Assembly (NCBI RefSeq): GCF_002105555.1
Contig: NZ_CP020612.1
Location: 585,001-649,000, forward strand
Source: Paracoccus contaminans
Lineage (GTDB): Bacteria; Pseudomonadota; Alphaproteobacteria; Rhodobacterales; Rhodobacteraceae
DNA: 64,000 bases
Reading direction: 5' to 3'
Both the position numbers and the translations under genes were made by a program. Below, piece after piece: positions 18,171 to 32,600 of the stretch. The notes under the pieces were generated by a model that worked only from the letters and a program-made list of their open reading frames with translations, ran no database searches and had not been told where the DNA came from. Each line of letters opens with the position of its first letter. Position 1 is the first letter of the stretch.

Positions 18171-19348
18171 CAGGTCTCTCCCGCCAGCATGGCAATGTCG
18201 ATCAGCGCCGGCGCAGGCATCACGAAGCCGGATTCGATCCAGGCCGCCTCGGCCGCGCGCAGCCCCCGCCCCAGCGCCGCGCCCGACAGCGCCGGCAGGT
18301 CGGCTGCGCAAACCGGCATCCGCTGGCCGGCGGCAAGGGCAATCTGCTCGCGCCAGTCATCCCGCGGCGCCTCGCCCCGCGCCGCGCGCAGCAGCGCGAT
18401 CTGCCCGGCGCGCCGGGCGCCCAGACGATAGGCGGCCTCGGCCAGCGGCCCGGCAAAGCGCAGCTCGTCCTGAACCCGCGCCTCGTCCCGCGACAGGCGC
18501 AGGCGCTGCGCCGCATCGGGCGCGCCAAGGGCAGCCAGGCGCAGGGGCCAGCGCCCGTTCTTCTGCATGGAAATATCCGGGGGTCCGGGGCAAAGCCCCG
18601 GTTCCGCCGCGACGAGGGCCGCGGCCCGCGCCGCATCGGCGCCGGGCAGCACCGCCTCCAGCACCCCGGAACGGTCCATCAGCGCCAGCGCCTCGGCAGG
18701 ATCGGGGGCGTCCAGCAGCTTGCGCATCTCGGCCCCCACGCGCTCGCGCGACAGCTGCGCCAGCCCTGCCCGGCCCCGCGCGCAGGCGGCCAGCGCCTCG
18801 GGATCGGCCGCGCCGGGGCGGCCATGGCGGGCATGAAAGCGGAAGAACCGCAGGATGCGCAGGTAATCCTCGGCGATCCGCCGGTCCGGATCGCCCACGA
18901 AGCGCAGCCGCCGCGCAGCCAGATCGGGCAGCCCCCCGACCGGGTCGATCACCTGCCCATCGGCATCGGCATAAAGCGCGTTCATGGTGAAATCGCGCCG
19001 CGCCGCATCATCCTCGATGCGGTCCGAAAAGGCGACGACCGCGCGCCGGCCATCCGTCTGCACGTCGCGGCGGAAGGTTGTCACCTCGAACCCCTCGCCA
19101 TCGGTGATCACCGTCACGGTGCCATGGGCGATCCCTGTTGGAACCGTGCGCAGCCCCGCCGCCCCGGCCAGCGCGATGACCCGTTCGGGCAGGGCATCGG
19201 TGGCGATGTCGATATCCTCGACCGGCTCGCCCAGCAGGGCGTTGCGCACCGCGCCCCCCACGATCAACGCGCGGGCGGGCGAAAGCGCCGCCAGGACGCG
19301 GCGCAGCGGCGGATGCGCGGTCACGCTGCCGGGCAGGACCGCGTTCAT
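18170..19348 (-). CDS. cca: CCA tRNA nucleotidyltransferase with an in-frame palindromic repeat
   Basis: Adds or repairs the 3'-terminal CCA of tRNAs, or only the C or A part in some bacteria. It has 392 residues. The class II polymerase-beta fold shows LIVGGAVRNALLG, the metal motif DIDIATDA, RRDFTMNALYAD and the RRIAEDYLRILRFFRFHAR helix. Residues about 249-264 (PGLCPGPPDISMQKNG) are encoded by a copy of the dispersed palindromic repeat, which keeps the frame open and adds a loop between two helices of the C-terminal domain. The start overlaps the Nudix stop (ATGA) and the end overlaps the exporter start. It is probably functional, since the insert lies outside the catalytic core. Confidence 0.93.
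   Translation of the reverse strand: MNAVLPGSVTAHPPLRRVLAALSPARALIVGGAVRNALLGEPVEDIDIATDALPERVIALAGAAGLRTVPTGIAHGTVTVITDGEGFEVTTFRRDVQTDGRRAVVAFSDRIEDDAARRDFTMNALYADADGQVIDPVGGLPDLAARRLRFVGDPDRRIAEDYLRILRFFRFHARHGRPGAADPEALAACARGRAGLAQLSRERVGAEMRKLLDAPDPAEALALMDRSGVLEAVLPGADAARAAALVAAEPGLCPGPPDISMQKNGRWPLRLAALGAPDAAQRLRLSRDEARVQDELRFAGPLAEAAYRLGARRAGQIALLRAARGEAPRDDWREQIALAAGQRMPVCAADLPALSGAALGRGLRAAEAAWIESGFVMPAPALIDIAMLAGET
18558..18605 (+). repeat. palindromic repeat copy A, inside cca
   Basis: It begins TTCTTCTGCATGG, then AAATATCC, GGGGGTCCGGGG, an AAA loop and GCCCCGG. CCGGGGC (18585-18591) and GCCCCGG (18595-18601) form a perfect seven-pair stem. The tail and stem match the intergenic copies at 28866, 32481-32531 and 48796. 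It is translated in frame as part of cca on the other strand. Confidence 0.8.
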
Positions 19349-28865: not shown

Positions 28866-28920
28866 TTCTTCTGCAGGAAAATATCCCACGGGGGTCCGGG
28901 GGTGTGAAACCCCCGGGTCC
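28866..28920 (+). repeat. palindromic repeat copy B, between fmt and deformylase genes
   Basis: TTCTTCTGCAGG, AAAATATCC, then CACGGGGGTCCGGGGG. CCGGGGGT (28896-28903) pairs with ACCCCCGG (28909-28916), and wobble pairs extend the stem. Over 51 bases it is almost identical to copy C near 32481. It could end or regulate transcription from the deformylase genes into fmt. Confidence 0.85.
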
Positions 28921-32480: not shown

Positions 32481-32531
32481 CCGGGGGTTTCACACCCCCG
32501 GACCCCCGTGGGATATTTCCCTGCAGAAGAA
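32481..32531 (-). repeat. palindromic repeat copy C (minus orientation)
   Basis: On the minus strand it reads TTCTTCTGCAGGG, AAATATCC, CACGGGGGTCCGGGGG, a TGTGAAA loop and CCCCCGG. It matches copy B at nearly every position across 51 bases. The hairpin at 32481-32501 lies 22 bases after the transpeptidase stop, so it may terminate the plus-strand transcript. Confidence 0.85.
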
Positions 32532-32536
32532 GGACA

Positions 32537-32600
32537 TCTTCGGTCCTCAAATATCCCGGGGGGGCCACCCGCAGGGCGGCGGGGGCAGCGCCCCCCCCCT
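32537..32600 (+). repeat. related palindromic element, head to head with copy C
   Basis: TCTTCGGTCCTC is followed by AAATATCCCGGGGGGG, the same tail-to-G-run junction as the other copies. The later part diverges and ends in a small hairpin, GGGGGC with GCCCCC (32581-32595). The pair of inverted elements occupies the convergent gap between the transpeptidase and hrpB, where both transcripts must end. Confidence 0.65.

Follow-up and report, generated by a model that had tools for sequence, protein, structure and literature searches.

Palindromes lying in frame have been described before, in Rickettsia, in Wolbachia and in some genomes rich in REPs. The Wolbachia palindromic elements are described as protein-coding palindromic repeats. 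The Rickettsia palindromic elements (RPE) are given a length of 105-146 bp, the first report placed them in frame within 19 reading frames, and a guanylate kinase bearing such an element was active with an altered substrate affinity (PMC2229807). Palindromic copies of RPE are reported to occur both between genes and in frame within genes, many of them in conserved proteins, and are viewed as a tolerated extra peptide (PMC2229807, PMC10969869); those of R. conorii carry CGTC at one end (PMC3733652). The GTAG/CGTC REPs are described as short palindromes that mostly adjoin 3′ ends in spaces flanked by convergent or co-directional genes; others lie within ORFs, many of these for DNA synthesis and repair, and two Xanthomonas species carry different REPs at about the same recB site (PMC3733652). 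Neither Paracoccus nor Rhodobacter occurs in the main text of that paper, and no description of the Paracoccus repeat treated here was found in the open-licence literature, judged by title and opening abstract.

The window (the whole stretch of 64,000 nucleotides of Paracoccus contaminans DNA that was analysed) contains the gene cca at 18173..19348 on the minus strand, encoding a CCA tRNA nucleotidyltransferase of 392 aa as read from the ORF and its Pfam matches. The product matched the profiles PF01743 (PolyA_pol, 4e-31) and PF12627 (PolyA_pol_RNAbd, 7.5e-10), and its best solved relative was the tRNA CCA-adding enzyme 1miv (2.1e-43); matches to the NCBIfam CCA nucleotidyltransferase models fell under the curated cut-offs. 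The first-pass annotation had claimed a palindromic element translated in frame inside cca, and this was confirmed by the reading of the sequence and of the genome family: a 44-nt copy of a dispersed element lies on the minus strand at 18558..18601 (CCGGGGCTTTGCCCCGGACCCCCGGATATTTCCATGCAGAAGAA) and corresponds to residues 250-264 (PGLCPGPPDISMQKN). The start given there, 18558, was retained and the end moved from 18605 to 18601; the segment is indeed in frame, but its assignment to residues 249-264 was one off, as PGLCPGPPDISMQKNG constitutes residues 250-265, the element covering two of the three bases of its own final codon, 264. The copy is laid out as CCGGGGC TTT GCCCCGG A CCCCC GGATATTT CCA TGCA GAAGAA. 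Its head at 18585..18601 (minus strand) is of type A and forms a 7-bp hairpin, CCGGGGC-TTT-GCCCCGG, as indicated by RNA folding and by intergenic copies with the same head type. The GGATATTT box at 18571..18578 (minus strand) occurs in all 59 copies, the search having required it. The tail TGCAGAAGAA at 18558..18567 (minus strand) is of a class that, of the 14 genomes counted, only this one has (GGATATTTNNNTGCAGAAGA, 31 copies here and none in 13 relatives). An RNA fold of the copy reached -19.6 kcal/mol (z = -2.36), a stability equalled or exceeded by 4 of 200 shuffles. When up to three mismatches were allowed, an 18-nt piece of the copy matched the window three times, its own site being one of these; 100 shuffles gave a mean of 0.00. 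From the sequence alignments to the profile and to 1miv, the insert is predicted to lie in a loop of the enzyme, beyond residue 239, the last of the PolyA_pol_RNAbd match, and in a stretch aligning poorly to 1miv.

Members of this family consist of a GC-hairpin head, the GGATATTT box, three loose bases, a tetramer and then either GAAGAA or GAAGAT, with CCGCCCGA as the ending of a third class. Downstream, conservation stays strong as far as position +20 of the box. In a comparison with the MITEs of DDE transposons, marked by terminal inverted repeats and target-site duplication, the palindrome was seen to lie in the head. A strict pattern (TTCTGCANGNAAATATCC) yielded 26 matches in the genome and none in its reversed-pattern control; a looser one (CCCCN{1,7}GGATATTT) yielded 82 overlapping matches, its control again giving none. 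After removal of duplicates at least 59 copies were read in the 3.03-Mb genome, with at least one further match, C1:12233, outside the 59. By a home-made gene caller based on codon usage, 47 of the 59 copies were intergenic, eight lay across a gene edge and four within genes; under a slightly narrower definition (n=57) the corresponding numbers were 47, six and four. The intergenic copies occupied 19 convergent, 26 co-directional and two divergent spaces. A sample of 0.23 Mb of the relative G011, chosen around listed copies, contained 45 matches, 41 of them intergenic, in 13 convergent, 23 co-directional and five divergent spaces by the same kind of gene calls. The head types, sorted by eye, were A (GGGGCnnTGCCCC), B (GGGGG...CCCCC with a longer foot, including B′, GGGGGCTGTCTGCCCCC), C (two hairpins) and D (ACGGTCCACCGGACCGT). 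The dominant tails among the 59 copies were TGCA (32), GACC (16) and GCCG-like (9), and heads A, B and C were each found with all three of them.

The window contains further elements. Two copies with a type B head and a TGCA tail, both intergenic by the home-made gene calls, are located at 28866..28916 on the minus strand and at 32481..32531 on the plus strand. A fourth element with a two-hairpin head and the tail GACCGAAGATG lies at 32535..32599 on the minus strand, tail to tail with the third; the stretch 32481-32599 thus resembles a REP dimer whose members have differing tail classes and share a single convergent intergenic space. Matches to the loose pattern varied about twentyfold among relatives (G011 312, G002 15, G108 0), overlapping matches being counted, so that these are not copy numbers. 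Transcription termination was considered as the main role of the element and rejected, because copies in co-directional spaces were oriented nearly evenly (14 vs 12 in this genome and 14 vs 9 in the G011 sample) and the hairpin has no U-run directly after it; termination may be a secondary role.

A search of the genomes of the genus gave a cca match in 124 of 125. The alignment comprised 121 proteins, that of this genome and those of 120 loci; absent from it were G023 (broken), G075 and G104:C527 (N-terminal part only), G092 (C-terminal part) and G086 (no match), and L190, which was aligned, stops at the insert site and was excluded from the informative count. The insert occurred at a single point and in one clade, in which 12 of 15 genomes had a recognisable element, clear in ten and altered in two. 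Clear copies were those of this genome and of G044, G084, G088, G061, G024, G073, G049, G002 and G011; the altered ones were a longer composite with a D head in G109 and a decayed form in G104. Of the remaining members, G026 had a degenerate sequence and G057 and G108 had none, the loose pattern finding no copy across the entire G108 genome. The element pattern was found in none of the 105 informative cca proteins outside the clade, and the insert segment measured 38-50 residues in these proteins vs 55 in the protein studied here. A tree was computed from 24 cca genes with the insert left out, 15 from the clade and nine from elsewhere, and in it the clade split off with a bootstrap of 99. Among 80 cca loci of named records, mostly from other genera, the Paracoccus-type pattern was present only at the P. 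marinus locus. Outside the insert, cca was under purifying selection in all eight pairs computed (dN/dS 0.13-0.28). The first-pass annotation had expected the segment to be missing from most relatives and inserted at one point, and the alignment agreed with this: all 105 informative outside proteins lack it, the clade has a single insertion point, and the same residues are not shared by all close relatives. By its distribution across the 121 aligned proteins the in-frame insertion would be ancestral, as had been proposed, and insertion of the element into cca itself is near certain.

The heads of the cca copies were compared with the rest of the gene. Type A copies differed by 0-4 bases over the 31-nt head, as against 13-26% over the remainder of cca, and type B′ copies by 0-5 bases over the 37-nt head, as against 14-27%. 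The genes of G049 and G011 are 27% different, and their 37-nt heads are identical; none of 1067 windows was equally similar. The heads of G002 and G011 differ by one base, again with no window of 1067 as similar. Two other pairs were unremarkable, G088/G002 being matched by 316 and G088/G049 by 233 of 1073 windows. In the nucleotide tree the sisters G011 (B′) and G073 (A) have different heads (bootstrap 100), and G084 (B′) grouped with G024 and G061, both of type A (bootstrap 100); the protein tree retained the two groups with a support of 1.00 and 0.95, respectively. The head type in cca had thus changed and yet the reading frame had been kept, the lengths of 31 and 37 nt being two codons apart. 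Deep nodes of the clade were weak (bootstrap 29-71), so that the number of head switches, four by hand parsimony, is uncertain. The palindrome of G088 is a variant that looks compensatory, and it is identical over 37 nt to L096, an intergenic copy of the genome studied here (G000). Compensatory evolution of the stem within cca was rejected for this variant, as the identity with L096 favours exchange.

Five tail tetramers were counted genome-wide in 14 genomes. TGCA was present in 31 copies in this genome and in none in the 13 others. TGAT occurred only in G011 (59) and G073 (38). CGAA was found mainly in G061 (33), G024 (30), G084 (28) and G088 (21), with one copy in G109, and CAAA mainly in G109 (62), with 1-12 copies in seven others. 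CAAG was distributed over G073 (32), G044 (22), G011 (15), G057 (13), G026 (7) and G104 (1). With the cca copy itself subtracted, 8 of the 11 readable cca tails belonged to a class represented by other copies of their own genome. When tails were shuffled among genomes, own copies not being subtracted, a mean of 3.9 matches was obtained vs 8 (P 0.004); the shuffle treats genomes as unrelated, which makes this P too optimistic and the tails of this genome and of G011 the most telling ones. In the three unmatched cases the tail of G109 was of a counted class absent from its genome, and those of G084 (CCAG) and G073 (GACA) were outside the counted tetramers. The element within the gene is thus not merely decaying but looks renewed, and its sequence tends to follow that of the other copies of its genome as these change.

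The cca gene is not the only one with an internal in-frame element. Another is the gene of a TIGR03862 flavoprotein (L085:501-1748, minus strand, where L085 is G000:C1:1236725-1239737; NCBIfam 4.3e-127). In an alignment of 28 genomes a strict pattern was present at the flavoprotein slot in 14, giving at least 14 occupied slots; diverged forms of the element were visible in e.g. G044, G039 and G070, and none in e.g. G109, G108, G047, G005 and G034. Head types A, B′ and C were all represented. The tail was GACC in this genome, a class with 16 copies there, the flavoprotein copy counted, TGAT in G011 and G073, and CGAA in G061, G084 and G024. Five of six flavoprotein tails of the GAAGAA type matched the genome counts, G044 being the miss. 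The 13-nt tail in G043 was identical to that of both other G043 copies fetched. The tail in G002, GACA-GAAGA, was common to seven of eight further fetched copies, all intergenic by the home-made gene calls, one of them with a spacer shorter by one base. One stop codon was observed within the flavoprotein matches of G044, G057, G026, G084, G124, G053, G066, G047 and G005, possibly the terminal stop.

The recO gene of G011 (L347:1668-2537, minus strand, where L347 is G011:C6:459500-464000) contains an in-frame composite element with the TGAT tail of that genome. Its product is RecO (TIGR00613, 3.7e-18), and alignment with RecO of the genome studied here showed a clean 48-residue insertion at the point of the element. 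In recO of the latter genome (L019:798-1559, plus strand) the reading frame runs through an antisense copy close to the C-terminus. The ATP-dependent DNA ligase and the thiamine phosphate synthase of this genome (L084 and L023, respectively) appear to end inside or just past a copy, so that the repeat would supply C-terminal residues to the DNA ligase and to ThiE, and also the ThiE stop codon. Three candidates of the G011 sample were set aside: the in-gene match L344 has no hairpin and was taken as chance, though it is counted among the 45 matches, and the antisense in-gene calls in L345 and L370 are near predicted starts that may have been placed wrongly, so that neither is put forward as a slot.

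The reading that we favour, with a probability of about two in three, is that a REP/RPE-like repeat was inserted in frame into an ancestral cca and has since been overwritten by copies of its own genome. In the common ancestor of a single Paracoccus clade, a REP-like palindrome would have entered the cca loop in sense orientation and without breaking the frame. That the slot is shared and the frame open is observed, and the tree points to a single origin of the insert. The insert would be translated as about 15-20 extra residues. The switching of heads and the matching of tails suggest that the element in the slot was then repeatedly overwritten by copies from the same genome, most likely through gene conversion over short tracts or through template switching from one copy to another. 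Such overwriting would leave the slot with a near-perfect palindrome and with the tail class of the host genome, and selection on the enzyme would retain only versions that are in frame and free of stop codons. The flavoprotein gene shows the same pattern as cca. Translated copies were probably overwritten by gene conversion. More tentatively, a homogenisation process other than RAYT might rewrite the copies of a genome to its specific tails and reach the coding sequences of the CCA transferase, the flavoprotein and RecO.

The variety of heads and tails at one slot would also be expected if the cca loop were a hot target at which lineages had gained their own copies by repeated independent insertion, and this would suit both the 5′ and 3′ junctions, which differ by a few codons between lineages, and the flavoprotein slot, filled in many species with several head types. 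However, many strikes would be needed at one codon of a 1.2-kb gene, with about 59 copies in 3.03 Mb, the cca loci L027-L041, with flanks of up to 1.5 kb, contain no second match to the pattern, and junction lengths, compared by eye, are common to sister pairs. Repeated insertion is therefore regarded as unlikely, and we judge conversion to be about three times as likely. A single insertion followed by vertical descent, with hairpin and tail selected as RNA structure or for protein binding and all copies co-evolving with a species-specific binding factor, would account for the conserved heads, the stable hairpin and the genome-specific tails across unlinked loci. Against such selection at the nucleotide level, the heads switch between discrete circulating subtypes and show no pattern of drift, and cca is kept where the element is degenerate (G026) or absent (G057, G108); this explanation appears improbable. 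High-GC codons favour short GC palindromes, and an ordinary GC-rich loop might resemble the repeat by chance. That is hardly credible, since the match spans 44 nt, the family numbers at least 59 copies and its 3′ end is sharp, the reversed-pattern control gave 0, and the cca genes of relatives have elements at the identical point.

One slot in a core enzyme can be traced across 15 species, with occupied, decayed and empty natural states and with exchange of repeat subtypes, and it lets the spread and homogenisation of short repeats by gene conversion be tested. The findings suggest that a repeat may dictate part of a protein sequence, and repeat-derived residues should be masked in protein phylogenies. 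If the homogenisation reading is true, stretches of core enzymes evolve in concert with a selfish repeat and not with their own gene.

The analogy with RPE drawn in the first-pass annotation holds for the behaviour of the element, a short palindrome with many intergenic copies and with in-frame copies in conserved enzymes, and, on the features compared, does not extend to membership in that family, the element having no CGTC tag, being shorter and belonging to another genus. CGTC was present near the 5′ and 3′ ends of five and three of the 59 copies and GACG near those of four and three, which indicates no CGTC tag; the figures were 0 and one for GTAG and 0 and 0 for CTAC, indicating no GTAG tag. 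A RAYT (Y1 transposase, PF01797) was found in none of the 15 genomes searched, the control giving matches in 5 of 14 known genomes, and a RAYT/Y1 transposase was rejected as the mobiliser on the strength of this result in 15 of 15 genomes. Like RPE, the Paracoccus palindrome has in-frame copies in cca, in the TIGR03862 flavoprotein gene and in recO of G011. Unlike RPE, given as 105-146 bp, the cca copy comprises 44 nt, composites being longer (48 residues in G011 recO), and its tail classes follow the genome, which sets it apart from RPE as these are described in print. It differs from the Wolbachia palindromic elements in its host genus, Paracoccus, and resembles them by description only. In its preference for convergent and co-directional intergenic spaces (19 and 26 of 47) it is like the GTAG REPs, whereas the GGATATTT box, the genome-specific tail and the absence of either tag and of a Y1 transposase match distinguish it from the GTAG/CGTC REPs. 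The Paracoccus element is filed in neither the RPE nor the GTAG/CGTC REP family, though it behaves like both.
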